DNA from: Oceanospirillum linum
GTDB lineage: Bacteria > Pseudomonadota > Gammaproteobacteria > Pseudomonadales > Halomonadaceae
Reading direction: 5' to 3'
DNA length: 64,000 nt
NCBI RefSeq assembly: GCF_001995095.2
Contig: NZ_MTSD02000005.1
Span: 62,001 to 126,000, forward strand
Positions 16,448-30,652 of this stretch are shown here, piece by piece (position 1 is the first letter of the stretch; every line of letters starts with the position of its first letter). The notes below the pieces were generated by a model that was not told the DNA's origin, made no database searches, and saw only the letters and a program-made list of their open reading frames with translations. Position numbers and translations under genes: made by a program.

Positions 16448-18004
16448 ATGAAACATAACTTACCTGTCACCCAGGTTGAGAAAAGTTTTCCCGATGACTT
16501 GCCTCTGATTTCCACGACTGACCTGAAAGGGCAGATTACCTTTGTTAATGATGGCTTTGTTGACATCTCAGGCTTCACCCGTGAAGAGTTAATGGGAAGG
16601 CCGCATAACATGGTGCGCCATCCGGATGTACCCTCAGCTGTCTTTGCTGATATGTGGGCTACATTGAAGAAGAATAAGCCTTGGATGGGCATCGTGAAAA
16701 ACCGTTGTAAAAATGGTGACCATTACTGGGTTAATGCGTTTGTAACACCTATTTTTGACGATGGGCATGTCACTGGCTATCAGTCCGTGCGGTCAAAACC
16801 GAAACAGAAAATGGTGAAACGAGCTGAAGATATCTATGCACGTGTTGCTAAAGGCAGGAAACGATTCAGCCTTTATGATGTGAATCTCAGCCCAGGTATT
16901 CCCATACTACTTTTTGTTGCGGCGCTTATTCCCAGTAGCCTGAGCTGGGTGTTTAATCTGTCGGTATCAGCAACGCTGGGAATATCTGTTGTCGTTGGTG
17001 CTTCTGGTTTTTTATTGCTCAGAGCGCTAATGGCTCCACTGAAAAGAGCTAATGACCGGGCCAGGCGTTATATCGACAGTGATATTTTGAAAGAGATGTA
17101 TGCCAATTGCACTGATGAAGCGGGACAGATGTATCTGGCTGCAATTATGCGTGAAGCCAGTGTGAATGCCATGACAACCCGTATCAGTCATTCTGCCAAA
17201 GAGTTATATACCCTTGGCGATGAGACCACACAGATTGCAAATCATGCTGCAGAAGCGATTAGTCGCCAGGCACTTGAGGTTGAACAGATAGCTACAGTGA
17301 TCAGCCAGCTTTCCGGTGCGATTGATGATGTCGCTCAGAATGCTAACTCTGCTTCAGATGAGACCCGTCGGGCTAACGGAATGGCGCATCAGGGGTGTAG
17401 CATGGTTAATGATACAGCCCGGTCTATCCATATATTGGCTTCAGCTATTCAGCAAGCTGCGGTTAAGGTTGAGGGGCTGCATCAGGCCACCGACGACATC
17501 GCTTCTGCCATTTCGGTGATTACAGATATTGCGGACCAGACAAATCTGTTAGCACTTAATGCTGCTATTGAAGCAGCCCGTGCAGGTGAGCAGGGTCGTG
17601 GCTTTGCGGTGGTTGCTGATGAAGTGCGTGTTCTGGCGCAACGGACTCAAAGCTCTACCGGTGAGATCTATGACACTCTCGAGCGACTGAAGAAAGAGAC
17701 AGAAGAGGTTGTTCGGGTGATGCGTGTCAGTCGGGAAAGCGCCACCGACTGTGTTGACCAGGCGCAGGTGGCAGGTGAAACGCTCAATGCGATCAGTCAG
17801 ACCATGGAGTCAATAACAGATATGAGCCAGACTATTGCGGCGGCGGCAACTCAGCAAAGCGCTGCCTCCGACGAGATACGTAATAATCTGGATTTAGTTA
17901 ATGAAGCGGCTGGGCGGGCGACAGAATCCTCCGCCCGAACCAAAGAAGCTTCAAATAACCTGATCAGTAGTGTCAGGCAGATTATGCAAAGTATTGCCCG
18001 GTAA
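16448..18004 (+). CDS. PAS-domain methyl-accepting chemotaxis protein (Aer-like)
   Basis: A 518-aa energy or redox sensor. A PAS domain occupies residues 20-120 ([14 protein letters not shown], then [11 protein letters not shown] and [10 protein letters not shown]), as in the aerotaxis receptor Aer, which binds FAD. Two hydrophobic helices lie near 155-200 without a periplasmic domain, then a HAMP-like linker and a signalling coiled coil whose hairpin tip carries [20 protein letters not shown]. Signals would reach CheA through CheW. Ligand or cofactor is inferred. A paralogue lies at 46919-48487. Confidence 0.93.
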
Positions 18005-18150
18005 GAAGTTTGCTTGTCAGAGAGAAAAAGGTGGAATACAGAGCAAAGAATAGCGCCGTATTCATCTAAGACTTTAATAGTTCTGACATGCTTTTGTGTG
18101 AAAATTCTATTGTTAAACAGTCACTTACTAATGTTCTAAGGGTAAATCAG

Positions 18151-18873
18151 TTGCGTAGTGTGGAAAAGCGGGCTTTGTATTTAAGAATACGGGATTACCT
18201 TGCAGCAGATATTGCTGCGGGAAAATGGGCTGAGAATGAGAAGCTACCTTCTGAGCGGCAGCTGTCTGAGCAGTTTAATACAACCCGGGTTACCGCGCGC
18301 CAGGCCCTGACTCAGCTTGAGGCTGAAGGGTTGATTTTCCGCTCTAACCGCCGGGGTTGGTTTGTGACGCCACCACGCATTAACTATGACCCAAGCCGTG
18401 ATATGGGCTTTGTGCGCTATGTCGAAGACCAGGGGTTTAGCGCACGTACCCAGACCCTGGAGAAAAAACTGATAGAGCTGCCGGATCATATCGCCGATGA
18501 AGTTGGGCTTGACCGTGGAACCCCTGTTTATGAAATTTTGCGCCGCCGATACATCAATGATCGCCCCTGTCTTATTGAAAAAATATTTCTTAACCCCAAA
18601 CACTGCCCCGGTGTTCTGCAGCACTCTCTGGATCGTTCGTTATGGAGCCTTCTGAAGGCTGAATATGATCTGGTGCCTGTGGAGCGTCATCTGGAGATTT
18701 ACCCTCAAACACTTGAACAGCCTATTGCTGAGGCTCTGGATGCTAATACTGGTACGTCGGGGCTTTACATTCGGCGCATTTGCCGTGACCAGAACGGGGA
18801 TTTTCTGGAGTTAGATGAAGAGTTTTGGTTGCATAACGCACTCAAAGTTGTTGTTAGTGTGATGCCGGACTGA
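18151..18873 (+). CDS. phnR: GntR/UTRA family regulator of phosphonate use (PhnR-like)
   Basis: A 240-aa regulator. The winged helix (KLPSERQLSEQFNTTRVTARQALTQLEAEG) sits at about residues 30-62 and a UTRA ligand domain fills the rest. The TTG at 18151 has AAGGG 8 bases upstream; ATG 18088 is an alternative that adds 21 residues but lacks a ribosome site. It heads a full 2-aminoethylphosphonate cluster, and three copies of one palindrome lie before the following units, so it is the likely repressor or activator responding to aminoethylphosphonate or a product. Its own promoter shows no such palindrome. Confidence 0.85.
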   Translation: MRSVEKRALYLRIRDYLAADIAAGKWAENEKLPSERQLSEQFNTTRVTARQALTQLEAEGLIFRSNRRGWFVTPPRINYDPSRDMGFVRYVEDQGFSARTQTLEKKLIELPDHIADEVGLDRGTPVYEILRRRYINDRPCLIEKIFLNPKHCPGVLQHSLDRSLWSLLKAEYDLVPVERHLEIYPQTLEQPIAEALDANTGTSGLYIRRICRDQNGDFLELDEEFWLHNALKVVVSVMPD

Positions 18874-18978
18874 TTATCCGGTCATTTTTTGTCTTCTCTG
18901 AGCTACCCGGCCTGCTATAACGATTGCTTCCTTCGCTGTCTTTTTTTCGTCACTGATTTGTCATACTTGTCGCTTATT

Positions 18979-18996
18979 ATCTGGTATATACCAGAT
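18979..18996. promoter_or_regulatory. PhnR operator 1 (before the FAD oxidoreductase)
   Basis: ATCTGGTATATACCAGAT is a perfect 18-bp palindrome, 77 bp before the oxidoreductase start. The same core lies before phnS and, with one change, before phnW. GntR-type factors bind sites of this size. Confidence 0.85.
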
Positions 18997-19072
18997 GTTG
19001 ATCGAATGAGTCTGTGTACAGGAAACAGCCTGAGGACAGATCGTCTGCAACCGATCCGAGGAGAGGCATTAA

Positions 19073-20350
19073 GTGCCGAAAAAACGTCATATTCTTATTA
19101 TTGGTGGCGGCATACTGGGGTGTAGTGCTGCATTCGCTCTCAGTCAACGGACTCACTGTAAAGTGACTCTGTTGGAGGCTAATACATTGGCTGCAGCGAC
19201 AACCAGTTCTGCGGCAGCTTTGTTAACCCGTGCCCGCCACAAGCCTGTTATCGCTGATTTAGTGAGAGAGACTTTTACTGCCATGGCTCAGCTGAATACC
19301 TTGCTGGATCAACCTCTGCCTTATAAAAAAGTAGGTAGCCTGCACATCGCCTGCAGTAGGGAGTCAAGTAATCAGCTGGATATGATGGCGATGCTAGCTG
19401 CTGAACAGCAGCTGCCGGTCCATAATTTGTCGATGGCAGAGGTCCGGCAAAAGTCACCCTGGCTCTCTCCGCCAGATGGCGCACGGGCTCTGTTTATGCC
19501 TGAGGATGGCTTTATCGATCCTTACCAGTTAGCCATGGCTTATCGACAGGGGGCTGCGGCATGTGCCCGTCAGTCTGGTGCAGAGTTACGCATTTTGCAG
19601 AATACACGGGTTGAAAAAATAACATTTGAGCCCGCAAGTGCTCATCCGGCCTGTGTGACAGGTGTAAAGCTGGCAGATGGCCAGTTAATCGATGCGGATA
19701 TTGTGATTGATGCTGCCGGGCCATGGTCAACACTTTTGGCGAACGCGGTCGGTGTGGATCTTGCTATGGCTCCTGTACGCAGCCATTACTGGATTACCGG
19801 TAAGCTGAGCTCTGTACCACCTGATTCACCCATGGTGATTCTTCCTGATGCCAGGGCCTATGCCCGTCCTGAGGTAGGCCATCTACTGTTTGGTTTGCGG
19901 GATTATCAGCCTGTTTATATGAGCCCAGAGCAATTGCCCAATGAACTGTCCGGGTTCTGCTTTGGTCATGATCCAGAGGGTTGGCAGGCTCTGGAAGACG
20001 GGTATGAGGATCTGGCGGGCTTTTTCCCCGAAATTGATCGTGTACCTGTTGAACATTACATCTCAGGAATCTCCAGCTACACCCCTGATGGTAGTCCGCT
20101 TGCAGGCTTCCTAACGGATGATAAGGGCAAAATAAAACTGGAAGGTTTTATAGCTCTGACTGGCTGCTCCGGAGGCGGTATCGGTATGTCCGGTGGCCTT
20201 GGGCGACTGGCTGCAGAGTTAGCGTTAGACGAGCCTCTTTTTACTGATCTTAAACCTCTGGCGTTGAATCGCTTCGGTAGTGTAGATCCTTTAAGTGACG
20301 ATTTTCAGCGTCGGTGTGCATTGGCCCGTATGGCTAAGCGCAGTGGATAA
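19073..20350 (+). CDS. FAD-dependent amine oxidoreductase (DadA-like) of the phosphonate cluster
   Basis: A 425-aa flavoenzyme of the glycine/D-amino-acid oxidase group. The dinucleotide fold ILIIGGGILGCSAAFALS starts at about residue 7; later blocks VIDAAGPWSTLLAN and SGISSYTPDGSPLAG, and a final GCSGGGIGMSGGLG, fit FAD binding. GTG 19073 has GAGGAGAGG just upstream. Its site within the aminoethylphosphonate regulon suggests it oxidises aminoethylphosphonate or its N-methyl form to phosphonoacetaldehyde, as reported for the PbfC/PbfD oxidases; that assignment is inference. It is preceded by its own PhnR palindrome. Confidence 0.85.
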   Translation: MPKKRHILIIGGGILGCSAAFALSQRTHCKVTLLEANTLAAATTSSAAALLTRARHKPVIADLVRETFTAMAQLNTLLDQPLPYKKVGSLHIACSRESSNQLDMMAMLAAEQQLPVHNLSMAEVRQKSPWLSPPDGARALFMPEDGFIDPYQLAMAYRQGAAACARQSGAELRILQNTRVEKITFEPASAHPACVTGVKLADGQLIDADIVIDAAGPWSTLLANAVGVDLAMAPVRSHYWITGKLSSVPPDSPMVILPDARAYARPEVGHLLFGLRDYQPVYMSPEQLPNELSGFCFGHDPEGWQALEDGYEDLAGFFPEIDRVPVEHYISGISSYTPDGSPLAGFLTDDKGKIKLEGFIALTGCSGGGIGMSGGLGRLAAELALDEPLFTDLKPLALNRFGSVDPLSDDFQRRCALARMAKRSG

Positions 20351-20449
20351 GCGCGGCTGAAAAACTATATGGCCGGTACTGCATCCTGAAACTTTTTTTG
20401 TAATTTTCATCTGCCGTTAATGGAATTGAAATATTGAGTTGTTACTTTC

Positions 20450-20461
20450 TGGTATATACCA
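20450..20461. promoter_or_regulatory. PhnR operator 2 (before phnS)
   Basis: TGGTATATACCA is a perfect 12-bp palindrome, 50 bp before the phnS start, identical in core to operator 1. TTACT on the left and AGTAA on the right extend the symmetry with an offset. Confidence 0.8.
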
Positions 20462-20511
20462 AGTAAAAGAAAAAATTGATCAGTGATTTAAGCAACTTCA
20501 AGGAAAAAACA

Positions 20512-21543
20512 ATGTATCTGACTCAACCGATAAAAAAGATCACCCTGGGCCTGGCTGGAGCCATCGCTCTTATGGCCGGTAGCGCACAGGCGAATACTGA
20601 ACTTAAAGTCTATACCGCACTGGAGACAGAGCAGCTGCGTCCATATGCCAAAGCGTTCAATGCACAGTACCCTGATATCAGTATCAAATGGGTGCGGGAC
20701 TCCACAGGTATTGTGACCGCGAAGCTGCTGGCTGAGAAAAACAACCCTCAGGCGGATGTGATCTGGGGATTGGCGGCAACCAGTCTGCTGGTACTGAAAG
20801 AGCAGGATATGCTGGAGCCATACGCACCGAAGGGGCTGGCAAAGCTGTCACCTAAGTTCCGTGATAAAGCGGCCACGCCTTCCTGGGTCGGTATGGATGC
20901 CTGGATGGCCTCTCTGTGCTTTAACACCATTGAGGCTGAAAAACTGGGATTGCCAAAACCAACCCGTTGGGAAGATCTGACTAAACCTGTCTATAAAGGT
21001 CATGTGGTTATGCCGAACCCGGCATCATCTGGTACCGGTTTCCTGGATGTTTCCTCCTGGTTGCAACTGTTCGGTGAAGACAAGGGCTGGGACTACATGG
21101 ACCGCCTGCATAATAACATCGCCCGTTACACTCATTCTGGCTCCAAACCCTGCAAACTGGCTGCCGCTGGTGAAGCCCCAATCGGCATCTCCTTCGCTTA
21201 CAAAGGTGCCAGCCTGAAGAAGAAAGGTGCTCCACTGGATGTGATCTACCCACAGGAAGGTCTGGGCTGGGATATGGAAGCTGCAAGTATCGTTAAAGGT
21301 ACTAAGAACCTGGATGCCGCCCGGAAGCTGATGGATTTTGCTGTCAGTAAAGAAGCCAACAAGTTGTACAACAAGAGCTTTGCGGTAGTGGCTTATCCGG
21401 GCATTGCTCAGCAGATTCCTTACTTCCCATCGGATGCTGAGAGCCTGATGATGAATAATGATTTCGAATGGTCTGCCAGCAACCGTAAGCAGATTCTGAG
21501 CAAATGGCAGAGTCGTTACGACAGCAAGAGTGATCCCAAGTAA
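20512..21543 (+). CDS. phnS: 2-aminoethylphosphonate ABC transporter, periplasmic binding protein
   Basis: A 343-aa extracellular solute-binding protein of the iron/putrescine-like class 2 fold. A signal peptide ends at AGSAQA-N near residue 27. The mature part runs ELKVYTALETEQLRPYAKAFNAQYPDI, as in aminoethylphosphonate-binding proteins. ATG 20512 has AAGGA 8 bases upstream; the frame opens earlier at 20476 without one. It feeds the PhnT/PhnV complex. A stem-loop follows the gene, which often raises the level of binding-protein mRNA relative to the other subunits. Confidence 0.93.
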   Translation: MYLTQPIKKITLGLAGAIALMAGSAQANTELKVYTALETEQLRPYAKAFNAQYPDISIKWVRDSTGIVTAKLLAEKNNPQADVIWGLAATSLLVLKEQDMLEPYAPKGLAKLSPKFRDKAATPSWVGMDAWMASLCFNTIEAEKLGLPKPTRWEDLTKPVYKGHVVMPNPASSGTGFLDVSSWLQLFGEDKGWDYMDRLHNNIARYTHSGSKPCKLAAAGEAPIGISFAYKGASLKKKGAPLDVIYPQEGLGWDMEAASIVKGTKNLDAARKLMDFAVSKEANKLYNKSFAVVAYPGIAQQIPYFPSDAESLMMNNDFEWSASNRKQILSKWQSRYDSKSDPK

Positions 21544-21560
21544 ACGTATCTTCTTCGGGG

Positions 21561-21582
21561 GTGTGTCATCTGACTGACACAC
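21561..21582 (+). terminator. Intercistronic stem-loop between phnS and phnT
   Basis: GTGTGTCA and TGACACAC form a perfect 8-bp stem around TCTGAC, followed by TTTCCCC, with outer GGGG/CCCC able to extend it. It may act as a partial terminator or protect the phnS message. Confidence 0.6.
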
Positions 21583-21699
21583 TTTCCCCTGAGACTGATG
21601 CCGGATGCCATAACTTTTTCATCAAACTGACTTTTATTCGATTTTATGCTGCAGCCAAACGCATCAGGCTGTAGTGATTACCGCGACCCGGAGACGCTT

Positions 21700-22896
21700 A
21701 TGATGGCGCAACCTCAACAACCGATCACTTCTGCTTGTACCCCATCAGCTAAGCGAAGTCATGCCCCTTATCTTCAGGTGAATAAACTCTGGAAACACTA
21801 CGGTAACTTTGCCGCCCTGAAAGAGGTGTCACTGGAGATCGAAGAAGGCGAATTTGTCTGTTTTCTGGGGCCTTCCGGTTGTGGTAAAACCACGCTTTTA
21901 CGGGCGATTGCTGGCCTGGACCCTCAGAGCCGGGGAGAGATTGTGCAGGGTGGTCAGACTATCTCACGCCTGCCACCGGAACAGCGTGATTTCGGTATTG
22001 TTTTTCAGTCCTACGCTCTGTTCCCGAATCTGACCGTTACTCAGAATATTGCTTATGGTCTGCGCAGTCTTAAAAAAAGCCGTCAGGAGGTTGCGCAGAA
22101 AGTAAATGAACTACTGGAAACCATCGGCCTGCCGGATATGGCCCATAAATATCCTGCTCAGCTTTCCGGTGGTCAGCAGCAGCGTATCGCTCTGGCTCGT
22201 GCCCTGGCGACTGAGCCAAGCCTGCTGTTACTTGACGAACCTCTTTCTGCGCTGGATGCCCGGGTGCGCCTGCATCTGCGTCAGGAGATCCGCAGCCTGC
22301 AGCGTAAGCTGGGTATCACCACGATTATGGTGACACACGATCAGGATGAAGCTCTGGCTATGGCTGACCGTATTGTGGTGATGAACCACGGCATTATTGA
22401 GCAGGTGGGGACACCGGAACAGGTTTATCGCCGCCCGGTTAATGCTTTCGTAGCGAACTTTGTGGGTACTATGAACTTGTTGCCGGTTAAAGCAGCTAAT
22501 CAGCAGCAAGTGAGAGTTCAGAGTCGCCTGATTAACTCCAGAAGCTATAAATCAAAGCAAATGGATGCCGCCTGGCTGGCATTTCGTCCAGAGGTTGCTG
22601 AGATTAAACCTGTGGGTTTGCATCTTGATGGCAATCGTTATGAGGGCTTCAGCGGTACAGTACTGCATACCGAGTTTATGGGGAATTTTTTACGTATTGA
22701 GGTAAGTCTGCCGGAATTTCAGCAGAGTGTTCAGGTCGATGTTAGCAGTCAGCATACTGACCTGACCTTGTGTGCTCCGGGATATCAGGTTTGCGTATCC
22801 GTGCCTGTGGATGAGCTACAGGTGTTTGAACGCTATAACAACTCTGCAGCCACTGGCGCTATCCTTTCTGGTAAAAATGAAGAGGTAGCAGCATGA
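21700..22896 (+). CDS. phnT: 2-aminoethylphosphonate ABC transporter, ATP-binding protein
   Basis: A 398-aa ATPase of the spermidine/iron/phosphonate importer group. Walker A GPSGCGKTT lies near residue 57, the Q-loop in FQSYALFPNLTV, the signature LSGGQQQRIALARAL near 155, Walker B LLLLDEPLSALDA near 175 and the switch His in VTHDQDEAL. The C-terminal 120 residues form a TOBE-like regulatory domain. ATG 21700 (Met-Met) has GGAG 7-10 bases upstream. The gene ends by overlapping phnV by 4 bp. Confidence 0.93.
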   Translation: MMAQPQQPITSACTPSAKRSHAPYLQVNKLWKHYGNFAALKEVSLEIEEGEFVCFLGPSGCGKTTLLRAIAGLDPQSRGEIVQGGQTISRLPPEQRDFGIVFQSYALFPNLTVTQNIAYGLRSLKKSRQEVAQKVNELLETIGLPDMAHKYPAQLSGGQQQRIALARALATEPSLLLLDEPLSALDARVRLHLRQEIRSLQRKLGITTIMVTHDQDEALAMADRIVVMNHGIIEQVGTPEQVYRRPVNAFVANFVGTMNLLPVKAANQQQVRVQSRLINSRSYKSKQMDAAWLAFRPEVAEIKPVGLHLDGNRYEGFSGTVLHTEFMGNFLRIEVSLPEFQQSVQVDVSSQHTDLTLCAPGYQVCVSVPVDELQVFERYNNSAATGAILSGKNEEVAA

Positions 22897-24626
22897 GTGG
22901 TGTTGCAGCCGACGGGCTTCAGGTCTCCGGAGGCGCTCAGGAGCGGGGTACGGTTAAAGCCGATAAAGTACGCCTGAGCCGTCAGGATTATCTTCAGCGT
23001 GGCGCTGTTTTGTTAGCGGTGTTTTTCCTGCTGGTGGCTTTGGTATTACCCCTTGGCACCATGCTGATCAAGAGCCTGCAGAATACTGAGGGTGAATTTG
23101 TCGGGCTGGCAAATTTTATTGGTTATATCCGTAATCCTGCACTGTTTCAGTCAGTGCTTAACTCTCTGCAGATCGCGCTGATCTCTACCTGTGTGGTGTT
23201 GTCGCTGGCATTTCTTTTTGCCTATGGATTGACCAGAACCTGTATGCCGGGTAAGAAAACACTGCGTGCGCTGACGCTGTTGCCGCTGTTTGCGCCGTCA
23301 TTGTTGCCAGCGATTAGTCTTATTTATTTATTGGGTAATCAGGGGATTTTTAAAGAGATTCTTATGGGGGCTTCGGTTTATGGCCCGATCGGTATCGTCG
23401 CGGGCATGTGCTTCTGGGTGTTTCCCCATGTACTGATGATTATGATTACCGCACTGTCTAACTCCGATGCTCGTCTGTATGAAGCGGCTCAGGTGATGAA
23501 AGCGTCACCTGTTCGTACCTTTTTTACCGTAACTCTGCCATCGGCGAAATACGGCCTGATCAGTGCCGGTTTTGTCGCCTTTACCCTGGTGATTACAGAT
23601 TTTGGTGTTCCCAAGGTGATTGGTGGCGATTTTAAGGTATTGGCAACGGATATTTACAAGCAGGTAGTGGGACAACAGAACTTTCAAATGGGAGCTGTGG
23701 TATCGGTGATTTTACTGTTGCCCGCCGTGTTTTCTTTTGCCGCAGACCGCCTGGTACAGAAAAAACAGGTTGCGATGCTCTCAGCTCGTGCAGTGCCTTA
23801 TGTACCGAAGCCCAATCCGGTAAAAGACAATATTTTCCTTGGGATATGTCTGCTGGTCGTATCCGCCATTCTGTTGGTGATCGGTATGGCTGCCTATGCT
23901 TCTTTTGTCAGCTTTTGGCCCTACAACATGGAATTGAGTCTGCAGCACTACGATTTTGAGTCTGTTGGTTCCAGCTGGGGTTACTACTTTAATTCACTGG
24001 AGATGGCCGCCTGGGTTGCTGTTATCGGGACCTGTATCGTGTTTCTTAATGCCTACCTGGTGGAGAAGGGCCGTGCCTTTGAACCGGTGCGTAACCTGCT
24101 GCATCTGATGGCGATGATTCCGATGGCGGTGCCGGGTATGGTATTAGGTCTGGCATATATTTTCTTCTTTAACCAGCCGGATAACCCACTTAATTTTATC
24201 TATGCAACGATGGCGATTTTGGTACTGAACAGTGTGGTGCATTTTTATACGGTCTGTCATTTAACCTCGGTAACGGCGCTGAAGCAGATTGATGGTGAGT
24301 TTGAATCAGTATCCGCATCTTTGAAAATTCCCTTTTACGTCACCTTCTGGCGGGTCACGCTGCCGGTTTCTCTGCCAGCGGTACTGGAGATCTCGGTTTA
24401 CCTGTTTGTAAATGCCATGACCACGGTATCAGCGGTGGTTTTTATCTACTCCAGCGACACCATGCTGGCTTCGATCTCGGTTCTGAATATGGATGAAGCG
24501 GGTAATACTGCCTCGGCTGCTGGTATGGGGATAATGATTCTGCTGACCTGCCTGGCAGTGAAGGGGCTGCATTGGTTACTGTCGCAACAGGTTCTTGAGC
24601 TGACTCAGGGGTGGCGTAACCGTTAA
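22893..24626 (+). CDS. phnV: 2-aminoethylphosphonate ABC transporter, long permease (two permease modules)
   Basis: A 577-aa inner-membrane protein with two copies of the binding-protein-dependent permease module, each with about six helices and an EAA loop (EAAQVMKASPVRTFFTVTLP near 200 and ESVSASLKIPFYVTFWRVTLP near 475). It thus replaces separate PhnU and PhnV subunits and can form the channel on its own with two PhnT copies. The start ATG 22893 overlaps the phnT stop as ATGA, a sign of coupled translation. The family is known as the putative aminoethylphosphonate permease. Confidence 0.92.
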   Translation: MSGVAADGLQVSGGAQERGTVKADKVRLSRQDYLQRGAVLLAVFFLLVALVLPLGTMLIKSLQNTEGEFVGLANFIGYIRNPALFQSVLNSLQIALISTCVVLSLAFLFAYGLTRTCMPGKKTLRALTLLPLFAPSLLPAISLIYLLGNQGIFKEILMGASVYGPIGIVAGMCFWVFPHVLMIMITALSNSDARLYEAAQVMKASPVRTFFTVTLPSAKYGLISAGFVAFTLVITDFGVPKVIGGDFKVLATDIYKQVVGQQNFQMGAVVSVILLLPAVFSFAADRLVQKKQVAMLSARAVPYVPKPNPVKDNIFLGICLLVVSAILLVIGMAAYASFVSFWPYNMELSLQHYDFESVGSSWGYYFNSLEMAAWVAVIGTCIVFLNAYLVEKGRAFEPVRNLLHLMAMIPMAVPGMVLGLAYIFFFNQPDNPLNFIYATMAILVLNSVVHFYTVCHLTSVTALKQIDGEFESVSASLKIPFYVTFWRVTLPVSLPAVLEISVYLFVNAMTTVSAVVFIYSSDTMLASISVLNMDEAGNTASAAGMGIMILLTCLAVKGLHWLLSQQVLELTQGWRNR

Positions 24627-24733
24627 GCCTGAGATAAAGACAATCCGTGTGTGCTTGCTGAGCTTCAGCAGGCAGTAATAACGATTCCGGTAAGGTGGGT
24701 TGAATTTTGTCCGCCTTATTTTTTCATTGCCAG

Positions 24734-24749
24734 ACTGGTATATGCCAGT
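24734..24749. promoter_or_regulatory. PhnR operator 3 (before phnW)
   Basis: ACTGGTATATGCCAGT is a 16-bp palindrome apart from one A/G pair, 60 bp before the phnW start. The core differs from operators 1 and 2 by one base. Confidence 0.82.
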
Positions 24750-24809: not shown

Positions 24810-25988
24810 ATGTCTGATTTTAATAGCCTGCCTTTGCAGGCAACTGGTAAGCCTCCTTATCTGCTGACGCCGGGGCCGATTACGACTACCGATACGGTTA
24901 AAGCTGCCATGCTACGTGACTGGGGCTCCTGGGATGGTGACTTCCGGCAGATGACCCGCCAACTGTGCGATCAGCTGCTGGACGTTGCTAATGCCAAAGA
25001 GAGCCATGTCTGTGTGCCGGTACAGGGCAGCGGGACTTTTGCTGTTGAGGCAACGCTGGGCACTCTGGTGCCGAAAGAGGGCAAGGTGCTGATATTGATG
25101 AATGGCGCTTACGGTAAGCGCTTAGTTCAGACGCTGGACTATCTGGGCCGTGACTACGTCACGCTGGATAAGGGTGACTATTTGCCCCCTATGCCGGATG
25201 AGGTGGAAAGTATCCTCAGGGCCGATGCCGAGATCACCCATGTAGCTGTGATTCACTGTGAAACCAGTTCCGGTATTCTCAACCCGGTGCCTGAAATTGC
25301 AGAGGTCGTTGTTCGACTGGGACGCCGTCTGATTATTGATTCCATGAGTGCCTTTGGTGCGATTCCGGTGGATGCGCAACGTCTGCCGTTTGATGCCCTG
25401 ATCTCCTCCGCTAACAAATGTTTTGAAGGTGTACCGGGATTTGGTTTCAGTCTGATCCGTCGTTCTGCACTGGAGCAAAGCAAAGGTAATGCGCACTCAC
25501 TGAGTCTGGATCTGTATGAGCAGTGGGCTTATCTGGAGAAAACCGGTCAGTGGCGTTTCACTCCACCAACCCATGTGGTGGCTGCTTTCCTGCAGGCGAT
25601 GAAAGAACACGCTGAAGAGGGTGGGGTTGCCGGTCGTTTGGCCCGTTACAGTCGTAACCAGCTGCGTCTGGTAGCCGGTATGAAGGCTCTGGGTTTTCGT
25701 ACTCTGCTGAATGAGAAATGGTTGTCACCAATCATTGTAACCTTCCTGTCGCCGCAACATGACAACTTTGATTTCAATACCTTCTATGACCGTATCAAAG
25801 CGAAGGGGTTTGTGATCTATCCCGGCAAACTGACTGTGGTGGACAGCTTCCGCCTGGGCTGTATCGGGCAGCTGTATGACGAACAGATCGATCAGGTACT
25901 GGTTGCTATTAAAGCGGTACTGGCAGAGATGCAGATCGAGAGCGGTCACGCGGAACTACCGGAAGAAAATGCCGTTACGGCGGCTTAA
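24810..25988 (+). CDS. phnW: 2-aminoethylphosphonate--pyruvate transaminase
   Basis: PhnW moves the amino group of 2-aminoethylphosphonate to pyruvate, giving phosphonoacetaldehyde and alanine; it uses PLP. The protein is 392 aa. It begins with the family's [15 protein letters not shown], has [17 protein letters not shown] near residue 75, and the PLP-binding Lys in [17 protein letters not shown] near 200. [15 protein letters not shown] holds the conserved Asp that contacts the ring. ATG 24810 gives the normal N-terminus; the frame opens at 24651, across the operator, and was rejected. phnX follows after 42 bp. Confidence 0.96.
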
Positions 25989-26030: not shown

Positions 26031-26858
26031 ATGTATCAGTTTACCCGTCGTTATATGGGGCCCCTGCAGGCTGTGATTATGGACTGGGCTGGCACCACGG
26101 TGGATTTTGGTTCCATGGCACCGATTCACGCGTTTTGCCGTTTGTTTGAACAGAACAAAACACCGATCACCGTTGCTGAGGCCCGGGCCCCTATGGGGGC
26201 AGAAAAGCGTGAGCATATCCGTCAGCTATGTGAGATGCCCCGTGTACGTGAAGCCTGGTTTACAGCCCACGGTGCCGAGCCAACCACTGCTGATATCGAC
26301 CGCATGTACGAAGAGTTTGTCCCGCTGCAGATTGCTGCGATTGCTCAGTGTGGTCAGCTGATTCCGGGTCTTAAGGAGACGTTAGCCTGGTGTCGTGAGC
26401 AGGAGATCGCTATCGGTGCTAATACCGGTTACGCCGAGCGCATGATCGAAGGCCTGCTGGCTTCTGCCTCAGAGCAGGGCTACAAGCCGGACAGTAATGT
26501 CTGCGCGACTGATGTACCAAAAGGCCGCCCATATCCGCACATGGCACTGAAAAATGCTATTGAGCTGGAGGTTAGCGACGTGGCTGCCTGCGTTAAAATT
26601 GACGATACTCTGACCGGTATCGATGAAGGTTTGTCTGCCGGTATGTGGACCATCGGCGTGGCGGTCAGCGGTAACGAAGTGGGCCTGACCCTTGATGAGT
26701 GGCAGGCGCTGCCCGAAGAAGAGCAGCAGATACGTCGTCGTTCGGCCTATCAGCGCTTCTATCAGGCCGGTGCGCACTATGTTGTGGATTCTATCGCGGA
26801 TGCGGTGCCTTGCCTGATGGAGATTCAGGAGCGTCTGGCAGCAGGGGATGCCCCTTGA
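26031..26858 (+). CDS. phnX: Phosphonoacetaldehyde hydrolase
   Basis: PhnX cleaves the C-P bond of phosphonoacetaldehyde, releasing acetaldehyde and phosphate. The 275-aa protein is a HAD-fold enzyme: the nucleophile Asp is in VIMDWAGTTVD near residue 17, and the Schiff-base Lys in APMGAEKREHIRQL near 55. ANTGYAERMIEGLL and CATDVPKGRPYPHMAL give motifs II and III, and KIDDTLTGIDEGLSAGMW motif IV. ATG 26031 follows AAGGA. It is coupled to the next gene by a 4-base overlap. Confidence 0.96.
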   Translation: MYQFTRRYMGPLQAVIMDWAGTTVDFGSMAPIHAFCRLFEQNKTPITVAEARAPMGAEKREHIRQLCEMPRVREAWFTAHGAEPTTADIDRMYEEFVPLQIAAIAQCGQLIPGLKETLAWCREQEIAIGANTGYAERMIEGLLASASEQGYKPDSNVCATDVPKGRPYPHMALKNAIELEVSDVAACVKIDDTLTGIDEGLSAGMWTIGVAVSGNEVGLTLDEWQALPEEEQQIRRRSAYQRFYQAGAHYVVDSIADAVPCLMEIQERLAAGDAP

Positions 26859-27751
26859 GCCCGGAAGCTCTGATTCTGGTACTGATTTCAGCCTGCCTAC
26901 ATGCAGGCTGGAATCTGATCGGTAAGCAGCAATCGCCCAGCCAGGCATTCTTTGTGATCAGTACCTTCTTTGGGGTTCTGCTGCTCTCTCCCTGGTTATG
27001 GCTTAACCCCGTTGCTCTGCCGGATTGGAAGCACCCTTTTTGGCTATGGCTGATTTTTTCAGGCTTCTTTCAGGCGATCTATCTGACTGGATTGGCACGG
27101 GCTTATAAAAGCGGTGATCTGTCAGTATCGTACCCGCTCGCCAGGGCGCTGCCGGTTGTACTTGTGCCGCTTTGTTACAGCTTGTCGGAACAGGGCAGTC
27201 AAATCAGCAGCGGGCACTTTCCTGCTGTGATTCTGATTGTGGCCGGGGCTTTGCTATTACCTCTTAACCGACTAAGGGATTGGCATTGGCGGGCTTACCT
27301 GCAGCCATCCATTCTATTTGTACTTCTGGCTGCTGTCGGAACAACGGGCTACTCACTTGTTGATGCCCATGGTATCAACATTTTGCAGAAGGATGCGGGC
27401 ATGAACCCTTACCAGGCCGGGGCAAGTTATGTGCTTTTACAGGGAATGACCTGCCTGTTATGGCTGGCTCCCTGGGCTATGTTCTATCAGGAAGAGCGCC
27501 GGCAGGCGTTTCGTCTGATCCAGGCACCAAAATGGATGATCTGGGCAGGGCTTTTTATCATGTTGACCTATCTGATGATTCTGGCCAGTTTTGCCTTGGT
27601 GGATGAGGCTAGCTTTGTCGTTGCTTTTCGGCAGATCAGTATTGTTTTAGGGGTTATTGCAGGTGTTGTTCTGCTCAAGGAGCAACTGAGCCGTTTAAGA
27701 GTGGTGTCGGTTAGTCTGATTTTTTTCGGTGTTGTGCTGATCAGTCTGTAA
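26855..27751 (+). CDS. EamA/DMT family permease in the phnWX operon
   Basis: A 298-aa inner-membrane protein with about ten helices in two EamA repeats (first with CLHAGWNLIGK near residue 15, second near 155-290, ending VSLIFFGVVLISL). The start is TTG 26855, overlapping the phnX stop as TTGA, with AGGGGA 7-12 bases upstream; no in-frame ATG fits the first helix. The DMT superfamily exports or imports small metabolites. In this operon it might handle alanine, an acetaldehyde-related product or another phosphonate; the sequence does not decide this. Confidence 0.87.
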   Translation: MSPEALILVLISACLHAGWNLIGKQQSPSQAFFVISTFFGVLLLSPWLWLNPVALPDWKHPFWLWLIFSGFFQAIYLTGLARAYKSGDLSVSYPLARALPVVLVPLCYSLSEQGSQISSGHFPAVILIVAGALLLPLNRLRDWHWRAYLQPSILFVLLAAVGTTGYSLVDAHGINILQKDAGMNPYQAGASYVLLQGMTCLLWLAPWAMFYQEERRQAFRLIQAPKWMIWAGLFIMLTYLMILASFALVDEASFVVAFRQISIVLGVIAGVVLLKEQLSRLRVVSVSLIFFGVVLISL

Positions 27752-28348: not shown

Positions 28349-30652
28349 TTAGAAGGTTACATTCGCTGAGAACCAGAAGTTACGTGATTTATCTTTGTTG
28401 TTGTAATCATCGTAGTAGATTGGCTCGTAAGTTCCGTCACCATTATCCTCAAAAGCGACTGACTGGCTGGTAAAGTCCTGATCCAACAAGTTGTTAACAC
28501 GGCCCGTTAGAGTCAGGTTATCCATAGCCTGCCAGGCGGCACCCAGGTGCAGTACTTCATAGCTTTTGAAGTAAATGTCACCATCGTCAGTACTCTCGTC
28601 GAAGCGTTTACTGCGGGCTTCCATTGACAGGAACACATTCAGGTCATCGCGGGCCATCCAGTCCAGCGTGGCATTCGCCATATGCTTGGCTGTGCCGGTC
28701 AGAGGCTGGCCTTTATCTGCGCCGCTATTTTGCTCACTGTCGGTATAGGTGTAGTTTGCGCGAACAGAGAGTGTCGGCATAATCTCATAGCTACCGGCAA
28801 GCTCAAGTCCTTTAATGGTGGCTTTATCAATATTCACTTTCTTAGAAAACTCGTCGTAGCCTAAGTCTGCCCAACCGTTACCGATATCGGCGCAAGGCTC
28901 AACACCTCCGGTTGCCTCACAGCTGCTCAGGTCACCTTGGCTCGCAATTTTGTCTTTAAAATTGTTTTGGAAGAGTGTGGCGTTAAAGCTGTGACGTTTA
29001 ACCGGGTGTTGCCAATAAACAGCAACTTCGGAGCTAACACTGGTTTCCGGTTCAAGATCCGGTGTACCAACAAATGGCTTGGTACCCTGGCCACCGAAAC
29101 CTACAATACCTGGGAAAAGGTCGGTTGTTTTAGGTGTTTTATAACCGGTACTGACGCCACCTTTAACGGTCCAGCTGTCAGCCAGTGCGTAGACACCATA
29201 AAGGCGGGGGCTGAACTGGCCACCAAAGGTTTCATGGTCGTCGTAACGCAGGCCTGCGGTCAGAACAAAGTCGTTGGTAATAGCCCAGTTATCCTCTGCG
29301 AACAGAGACCACATGTTGTGTTCCTGTACTTCCCCGGCTTTATATTCGTCGCCATACATTCCAAAAACGCCATCTTCCAGCTCACCGCGAATCACCTGGA
29401 AACCGGTAATAACCTGGTGGTCGCCTAAAGGAATATCCAGTTTGCCATCTAATGTGTATTGACGGCTTTCCATTGGGCGGTCCGGGCGAGGCAGGTACTT
29501 CTCACCGGATAGTGTCTGTAGCTCTGCTTTTGATATGCCTGCATAGGGGTTGTCCGCAGTGGCTGTACCCTTGGCTGCAGCGTACATAAGATCCATATCC
29601 GCACGCTGTTCTGCGGTTAACGGGAGTGTCCGGCCATCATTGGTTGTGCTAAGACTGGAGAAGTTCACCAGACTCATGATGTCACCCCAGTGACCTTCAT
29701 GGCTCAGGGCCCATTCCTCCCGATTAAACTCTTGTTCATCTTTGTAGCCAGCGCGAGGGGAGCTGTCTTTATACCAGAGGCGATCAATGCTATCGACGGT
29801 ACCAACCTGACTACCTTCGTTATCGTAAACCTGTTTAGAGGCATCATAATCAAAGGTTAGCCTATGGTTATCATCAGGGGTAAAGATCAGACTCAGACCA
29901 CCGGCTTTATTGGTGTTATCAACGGTTTTCCCGCCACTGCCATATCCCAGCTCCCGCTCATGAACGGTGCCGGATGGATCGGTGACATCAGCATAGTCCG
30001 GGGTTGAGGATTCTTTGTCATAGATGCTTCCGCGAAGCCCCATCATCAGCTTACCAGGTACAACAGGGCCCATGAAGGAGAAGTCCAGGGTTGTGTCATC
30101 ACCGTAGTCATCGTTGGTTTGAACGGTGCGGCTAGCTGTAATAGAGCCAGACCATTTCTCAGCATCACGTTTGGTGATCACGTTGATCACACCGCCCATG
30201 GCATCAGCACCATAAAGGGTAGAGGCCGGGCCACGAATAACTTCGATGCGCTCAATTGAGTCCAAAGGTGGGATATGGTTAAACTGGTTGCCACCAAAGT
30301 TATTGGGGTAGATGTCACCGTGGTTATTCTGACGACGGCCATTGATCAGAATCAGAGTGTAATCAGATCCCATGCCGCGCATGGAGATACTGCCCTGACC
30401 GGTTTTATCCCGGGTTTCACCAACGTCAACACCTTCCAGGTCTTTTACTGCATCCAGAAGTGTTGTGTATGGACGGGAACGAAGCTGCTCTTCGGTTATG
30501 ACCGAAATACTGGCCGGTGCATCGGTGAGTTTCTGTTCAAAACCTGCAGCGGTAACCACCACAGAATCCATATTCACCTGATCTTCAGCGTGAACGACCG
30601 CAGCAATCGCTGCACTCAGTCCGAGTAAAACAGGACGAAAAATAGTCTTCAT
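28349..30652 (-). CDS. TonB-dependent siderophore-type receptor (CirA/FepA-like)
   Basis: A 767-aa outer-membrane receptor. The signal peptide ends near residue 22 (VVHA-ED). MDSVVVTAAG is the TonB box region. The plug domain runs to about residue 160 with RSRPYTTLLDAVKDLEGV and the IERIEVIRGPASTLYGADAMGGVINVITK block, typical of FepA/CirA. A 22-strand barrel follows and ends in FWFSANVTF with the C-terminal Phe. A Fur box lies 94 bp upstream, so it is made under iron limitation. The ligand is probably a catecholate, by likeness only. Confidence 0.93.
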   Translation of the reverse strand: MKTIFRPVLLGLSAAIAAVVHAEDQVNMDSVVVTAAGFEQKLTDAPASISVITEEQLRSRPYTTLLDAVKDLEGVDVGETRDKTGQGSISMRGMGSDYTLILINGRRQNNHGDIYPNNFGGNQFNHIPPLDSIERIEVIRGPASTLYGADAMGGVINVITKRDAEKWSGSITASRTVQTNDDYGDDTTLDFSFMGPVVPGKLMMGLRGSIYDKESSTPDYADVTDPSGTVHERELGYGSGGKTVDNTNKAGGLSLIFTPDDNHRLTFDYDASKQVYDNEGSQVGTVDSIDRLWYKDSSPRAGYKDEQEFNREEWALSHEGHWGDIMSLVNFSSLSTTNDGRTLPLTAEQRADMDLMYAAAKGTATADNPYAGISKAELQTLSGEKYLPRPDRPMESRQYTLDGKLDIPLGDHQVITGFQVIRGELEDGVFGMYGDEYKAGEVQEHNMWSLFAEDNWAITNDFVLTAGLRYDDHETFGGQFSPRLYGVYALADSWTVKGGVSTGYKTPKTTDLFPGIVGFGGQGTKPFVGTPDLEPETSVSSEVAVYWQHPVKRHSFNATLFQNNFKDKIASQGDLSSCEATGGVEPCADIGNGWADLGYDEFSKKVNIDKATIKGLELAGSYEIMPTLSVRANYTYTDSEQNSGADKGQPLTGTAKHMANATLDWMARDDLNVFLSMEARSKRFDESTDDGDIYFKSYEVLHLGAAWQAMDNLTLTGRVNNLLDQDFTSQSVAFEDNGDGTYEPIYYDDYNNKDKSRNFWFSANVTF

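Follow-up and report, generated by a model that had tools for sequence, protein, structure and literature searches.

Among natural phosphonates, aminoethylphosphonate is the most common (PMC10590968), and PhnR of Salmonella, which has a GntR-family relative, is described as a putative regulator of phosphonate use (PMC5351497). The PhnR of Pseudomonas fluorescens 23F has the same name but is an unrelated protein of the LysR type (PMC10574752). For the HutC subfamily, the operator consensus is given as NyGTMTAKACNy (PMC4494728), and on the catabolic side, PbfC of Azospirillum sp. B510 is reported to oxidise N-methyl-aminoethylphosphonate to phosphonoacetaldehyde (PMC10590968). The present analysis concerns a phosphonate (phn) gene cluster of Oceanospirillum linum and the palindrome TGGTATATACCA repeated in it. 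The cluster lies in a stretch of 64,000 nucleotides (contig NZ_MTSD02000005.1, positions 62,001 to 126,000 of the forward strand), which is called the window below and to which all positions without a contig name refer. The palindrome is probably the operator of the PhnR-like regulator encoded in the cluster, and the aminoethylphosphonate regulon would be larger than the original prediction saw, since in Oceanospirillum it would include a dCache chemoreceptor.

Three places in the 64 kb match TGGTATATACCA with at most one mismatch, whereas 100 dinucleotide shuffles showed a mean of 0.11 and a maximum of 1. Operator 1 (18982-18993) is an exact copy inside a perfect 18-base palindrome, ATCTGGTATATACCAGAT (18979-18996), ahead of the gene of a flavin adenine dinucleotide (FAD)-dependent oxidoreductase. 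Operator 2 (20450-20461), ahead of phnS, is exact as well, and operator 3 (24736-24747), ahead of phnW, is the one-base variant TGGTATATGCCA; no strand is assigned to any of them. The sites are separated from the likely start codons by 79 bases in the FAD gene (GTG at 19073), 50 in phnS (ATG at 20512), and 62 in phnW (ATG at 24810). Coordinates and shuffles agree with the original prediction, in which the palindrome was exact at the oxidoreductase and phnS genes and changed in one base at phnW, and its statement that the window has no further copy is true at up to one mismatch. When two mismatches are allowed, four places appear where 2.02 are expected by chance. Since 19 of the 100 shuffles also reach four, this number lacks significance, and the fourth place (37612) is considered noise. 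Ahead of phnR itself, the window scan showed no copy with up to two mismatches.

In the whole genome (3.78 million bases in 285 contigs), the search for the 18-base palindrome with up to three mismatches gave three places, and none for the control. These are operator 1, operator 2 (three mismatches), and a site on another contig (two mismatches), while operator 3 was not reached. Many copies away from phn genes had been named beforehand as one result that would speak against a PhnR regulon; a single one of the three places is of that kind. The 12-mer with up to one mismatch is found at seven places, i.e., the three of the window, three within coding sequence (folA, a dsbC-like gene, and prpB), and an exact copy (L005:6001-6012) at the site of the other contig. 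This last copy is located 16 bases ahead of the start of a chemoreceptor gene on the minus strand (L005:3897-5984; dCache, 695 residues), which is proposed as a fourth member of the regulon. The claim that three copies define the regulon is thus incomplete, as a fourth copy, itself exact, precedes this unlinked gene.

By analogy with the regulator family, a PhnR dimer would repress from each operator and would be released by an aminophosphonate or one of its breakdown products. PhnR would control the three units of the window and, in trans, the chemoreceptor gene, so that uptake (phnSTU), catabolism, and taxis would be switched on together. Two routes may lead to phosphonoacetaldehyde, namely transamination by PhnW and PbfC-like oxidation of an N-methylated substrate, and PhnX would then cleave it. 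Both repression and the inducer are analogies, drawn from the closest solved relatives, YvoA and DasR, which are named repressors. That PhnR is instead an activator, or that the operator is needed for induction and not for repression, is unlikely, though one result favors it: in the region of operators 1 and 2 (17950-20560), no sigma-70-like hexamers were found, as opposed to a mean of 2.9 in shuffles. However, this promoter scan is a match to a consensus only, and the position of the receptor site, 14-16 bases before the start codon, suits blocking; the naming of YvoA and DasR likewise speaks for a repressor. An extended -10 element within the operator was also considered; the idea was abandoned, because relatives vary within it and the scan of 17950-20560 revealed no promoter-like site. 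At operator 3, the scan gave one weak match overlapping the operator, which was not used.

The chemoreceptor site is conserved at the orthologues of the receptor. Close orthologues of the sensor domain are present in four of the six Oceanospirillum genomes (100, 91, 63, and 63% identity), and at E ≤ 1e-45 these four are the only matches among the 151 genomes of the family searched. The palindrome is found ahead of all four, three times exact and once as TGGTCTATACCA, at nearly the same place, i.e., 16 or 14 bases from a GTG start. Compared without gaps over the 60 bases that precede the site, O. linum shares 14 with G001 and 20 with G002, while the 12-base core is identical; such counts understate likeness near indels, as seen in G003 (18 of 60 although the upstream DNA aligns well), a close relative which adds little independence. 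On the other hand, none of the 16 other loci with such sensor domains (paralogues) in the same six genomes has a copy with up to two mismatches. G004 has neither a phnR homologue at E ≤ 1e-25 nor a receptor orthologue nor a site, and in G005, phnR is present and the receptor absent. It is therefore improbable that the receptor site is a chance copy and that the regulon of O. linum consists only of the phn cluster: about 0.2 exact copies of the 12-mer are expected by chance in a genome of this size, and unlinked copies do occur in the order (see below), but a core kept at 12 of 12 bases within diverged upstream DNA, always beside the orthologue and never beside a paralogue, argues against it.

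The regulator of the window carries both domains of a GntR/UTRA protein (PF00392, 71.6 bits, cut-off 27; PF07702, 99.1 bits, cut-off 23.8). The HutC-subfamily consensus is matched by operators 1 and 2 as well as by the site at the receptor gene, and operator 3 departs from it in one base. A second PhnR-like GntR protein of the genome (C210; L149:1189-6711) adjoins an ABC transporter and a phosphatase-like gene, both named by eye. CTGGACTAGGTCAG-like palindromes, also read by eye, flank the gene of C210 and its O. maris counterpart, and TGGTCTAGTCCA was found by script at two of six further homologues and at none of the other four. The CTGGACTAGGTCAG-like palindromes are possibly the second regulator's own operators, and the two regulators seem to read different centres. 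That another regulator such as C210 reads TGGTATATACCA is very improbable and was dropped, for despite its 36% identity to PhnR, its similar DNA-binding segment, and the common form of GntR operators, the 12 kb around its gene and around the O. maris counterpart have no TGGTATATACCA with up to two mismatches but the other palindromes instead, and in other genera TGGTATATACCA remains associated with phnR-phnSTU-phnW clusters. Consensus fit, conservation of the sites, and the different palindrome at the second regulator thus all agree with the operator model for PhnR put forward in the original prediction, in which binding by PhnR is what we infer.

Conservation of the sites upstream of phn genes, for which a comparison with relatives had been proposed, is seen in four named Oceanospirillum species and in phnR clusters of other genera. 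PhnR homologues with 70-84% identity were located in O. maris, O. beijerinckii, O. sediminis, and O. multiglobuliferum, which gives four of five loci; the fifth (Thalassotalea, 25% identity) was left out. In O. beijerinckii, O. sediminis, and O. multiglobuliferum, the sites of the FAD gene, phnS, and phnW have an unchanged layout. O. maris, without a FAD gene there, shows one site ahead of phnS and one with two mismatches ahead of phnW. Within L009:10732-11068 of this species, a site with flanks like those of the FAD operator lies about 250 bases ahead of phnS, with no FAD gene between phnR and phnS; it is as if the FAD gene had disappeared and its operator had stayed behind.

A PhnR homologue at E ≤ 1e-25 occurs in 36 of the 151 family genomes, and in 18 of the 30 phnR-homologue loci returned, with flanks of about 1.5 kb on each side, a site with at most one mismatch is present. 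In G029 and G065, an exact site is found just past these flanks, ahead of a permease gene. Throughout the 390 genomes of the order, the exact 14-mer CTGGTATATACCAR occurs at 36 places in 28 genomes (53 strand matches; control, 7). For the 33 places in the 27 genomes other than O. linum, stretches of 6.8-17 kb were inspected: 22 places belong to clusters containing homologues of phnR, phnS, or phnW, and one is directly ahead of a TIGR03340-like permease gene (G269). In three genomes of another family (G379, G499, and G186), the order phnR-site-FAD-site-phnS is that of the window, and the FAD enzymes show 47-50% identity. A table of 51 sites was picked by hand, with up to two mismatches and ahead of recognised genes; two of the sites have two mismatches or a changed centre, and L052, L054, L056, L058, L169-L171, L174, L176, and the second sites of some clusters were left out. 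Its invariant columns are partly due to its construction, so only the variation at the centre was used.

Several points weigh against the proposed PhnR operator and its enlarged regulon. Loose genome scans remain near background, with seven places for the 12-mer against five for the pattern read backwards, and 39 against 25 for TGGTNTANACCA in six genomes. The regulator scores 235 bits with TIGR03337, below the cut-off of 296.75, and is called PhnR-like for this reason, though the family is still the best of the 25 listed. No site is found in the flanks of 12 of the 30 phnR-homologue loci; in two it is just beyond, six have the second type of regulator, and four are others. Ten of the 33 exact CTGGTATATACCAR places have no phn link and neighbor genes with generic ATPase, hydrolase, or signalling-domain matches, six of them being inside an open frame. 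Finally, the chemoreceptor is confined to four Oceanospirillum species, and O. multiglobuliferum has phnR without the receptor.

Other copies in the genus, among those read, are mostly within coding sequence and were not taken as sites. Exceptions without phn linkage are an exact copy at L129:2001, intergenic or in a short open reading frame (ORF), and a copy with one mismatch at L131:2001, 66 bases ahead of an ORF of 348 residues. The dsbC-like coding sequence matches TGGTNTANACCA in four Oceanospirillum genomes (L007:6001, L132:2001, L140:2001, and L142:2001), which probably reflects conserved codons and is a warning for motif scans. Elsewhere in the order, an exact copy in G445 (L182:3025-4013) stands about 60 bases ahead of a substrate-binding-protein-like gene, with no phn genes recognised nearby. 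The phnR-bearing G214 has, within L175:1460-4013, a second exact copy (L175:4002) ahead of an ORF of 104 residues, which is followed by a chemoreceptor gene of another type; this unlinked copy was not counted.

In relatives, the motif also precedes accessory genes. In G483, a PbfA lyase is encoded behind a site with one mismatch (NF049939, 716.8 bits, cut-off 525). The same genome has a PbfB-type enzyme (TIGR03329, 727.5 bits, cut-off 632.8) and G321 has another (696.2 bits), where the reading of TIGR03329 as PbfB follows from the family name and from likeness to PuuB-type enzymes. An unlinked O. sediminis gene for an HD-domain oxygenase (L045:5042-5587) has an exact site 28 bases upstream. 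The best PDB matches of this protein are TmpB (6npa, 7e-33) and PhnZ (4n71, 3e-27), and its score with TIGR03276, 205.7 bits, is under the cut-off of 214.6, so that it is related to the family and not filed as a member. A homologue of this oxygenase is encoded after phnX, behind the phnW site, in G198.

The FAD enzyme of the window has its best match in the plasmid collection in a gene of Azospirillum sp. B510 (41.8% identity; next best, 28.8%), which on its plasmid directly follows phnS-T-U, phnW, and phnX. Judged by organism and place only, the plasmid gene would be that of the assayed PbfC. The window enzyme thus appears to be PbfC-like, and it is far short of the PbfD1 family (TIGR03364, 36.7 of 285.1 bits). 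It has no match to the enzymes of G483 and G321 at E 1e-5. As judged from these comparisons, one operator serves FAD enzymes of quite different families, in line with PMC10590968, according to which such enzymes have been recruited repeatedly.

All genes of the cluster are on the plus strand. The phnR-like gene (GntR-UTRA, HutC type; PF00392, PF07702, TIGR03337) extends over 18088..18873, its exact start being uncertain, and is followed by a terminator-like hairpin (18864..18882; five such sites in the scan, mean of 2.4 in shuffles). The FAD gene (19073..20350; PF01266, PbfC-like) comes next, and then phnS2 for the aminoethylphosphonate-binding protein (20512..21543; TIGR03261, 533.5 bits, cut-off 392.75), phnT2 for the transporter ATPase (21646..22896; TIGR03265, 495.8 bits, cut-off 457.7), and phnU2 for the permease of the transporter (22893..24626; TIGR03262, 805.9 bits, cut-off 593.25). 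A second plus-strand hairpin (24689..24720; seven such sites, mean of 4.2 in shuffles) lies in the interval between phnU and operator 3. Downstream are phnW, for the aminoethylphosphonate-pyruvate transaminase (24810..25988; NF010006, 570.7 bits, cut-off 296), phnX, for the phosphonoacetaldehyde hydrolase (26031..26858, from the ATG at 26031, with the longest frame from 25998; TIGR01422, 349.3 bits, cut-off 220), and a DMT/EamA permease gene (26855..27751). Because of the two hairpins, which are only modestly commoner than in shuffles, the cluster past phnR looks like three transcription units, i.e., the FAD gene, phnSTU, and phnW-phnX-permease.

The permease is nearest to TIGR03340 (phn_DUF6), the better of the two families matched, with 154.6 bits and thus under the cut-off of 288.15. 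The original prediction tied both the flavoenzyme and this DMT permease to the regulon. The former has a site of its own. The latter has none here, but its TTG codon (26855) overlaps the phnX stop, it is probably co-transcribed with phnWX, and in four other genomes (G029, G065, G250, and G269) a site lies directly ahead of the permease gene. Just past the permease, a TonB-dependent receptor-like gene is located on the minus strand (28349-30652). Directly ahead of phnR is the gene of a PAS-domain chemoreceptor (16448-18004), homologues of which (73-77% identity) are also found ahead of phnR in O. maris, O. beijerinckii, and O. sediminis, whereas none was found there in O. multiglobuliferum. The species with this PAS receptor are the same as those with the operator-bearing receptor.

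The nearest solved structures to the sensor domain of the operator-bearing receptor are 7prq (PctD, 3.3e-32), 6f9g (McpU, 1.7e-26), and 6fu4 (TlpQ, 8.9e-23). McpU binds polyamines. Choline and acetylcholine are the ligands of PctD, and histamine that of TlpQ (PMC10104139, PMC9040839). Among the 390 genomes of the order, 12 besides O. linum have such a sensor domain at E ≤ 1e-38, with 28-33% identity. In the alignment, the pocket residues R103, D133, F188, Y189, S217, and D235 of the dCache_1AM motif (PctD numbers) are identical in the four orthologues. At the position of the aromatic residue W155 of PctD (PMC10104139), the receptors of O. linum and O. maris have Leu, the two remaining orthologues Phe, and a single mismatch in the amine motif is reported to leave no or largely reduced amine affinity (PMC10104139). 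Owing to the altered W155 position, the receptor is considered amine-sensor-like and is not filed as a dCache_1AM member; its altered pocket would be compatible with an aminophosphonate ligand. Tentatively, it may be dedicated to sensing aminoethylphosphonate or N-methyl forms of it. These species would then hunt organophosphonates by chemotaxis, the receptor being made only while the operons for feeding are expressed.

Overall, the main lines of the original prediction hold, and the chemoreceptor adds to them, as do the accessory enzymes of relatives. A well-founded operator allows accessory genes of aminoethylphosphonate breakdown to be found by a short motif, which in relatives already marks a PbfA lyase, PbfB-type enzymes, a PbfC-like enzyme, an HD-domain oxygenase, and the permease. 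Control of a chemoreceptor from this operator would connect the breakdown of phosphonates to chemotaxis, and an orphan receptor gains a short list of candidate ligands. The arrangement suggests that the genes for feeding on aminoethylphosphonate and for swimming to it are turned on jointly. Chemoreceptor genes occur on some catabolic plasmids, and PhnR regulons are reportedly listed in RegPrecise. The literature searched by topic terms did not contain the 12-mer TGGTATATACCA, though papers that give the sequence but few of the terms would escape such a search. Among the papers listed on the topic, titles and the beginnings of abstracts showed no link between phosphonates and chemoreceptors, and a literature search on the shared control of chemoreceptor and catabolic genes gave nothing related.

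Compared with known systems, the receptor has its closest solved sensor domains in the amine receptors PctD, McpU, and TlpQ, and for these three no control by a phosphonate regulator was seen. The operators have the form described for the HutC subfamily, with GT and AC four bases apart, and their centre GTATATAC fits GTMTAKAC (PMC4494728), although the sections of that paper at hand show no PhnR site with this centre. The regulator itself has its best family match, over nearly the full protein length, in the GntR-type PhnR (TIGR03337) represented by STM0430 of Salmonella. Similarly, the FAD enzyme is closest to the Azospirillum sp. B510 plasmid gene beside phnW-phnX, that is, to the presumed gene of PbfC, the N-methyl-aminoethylphosphonate dehydrogenase of that organism.

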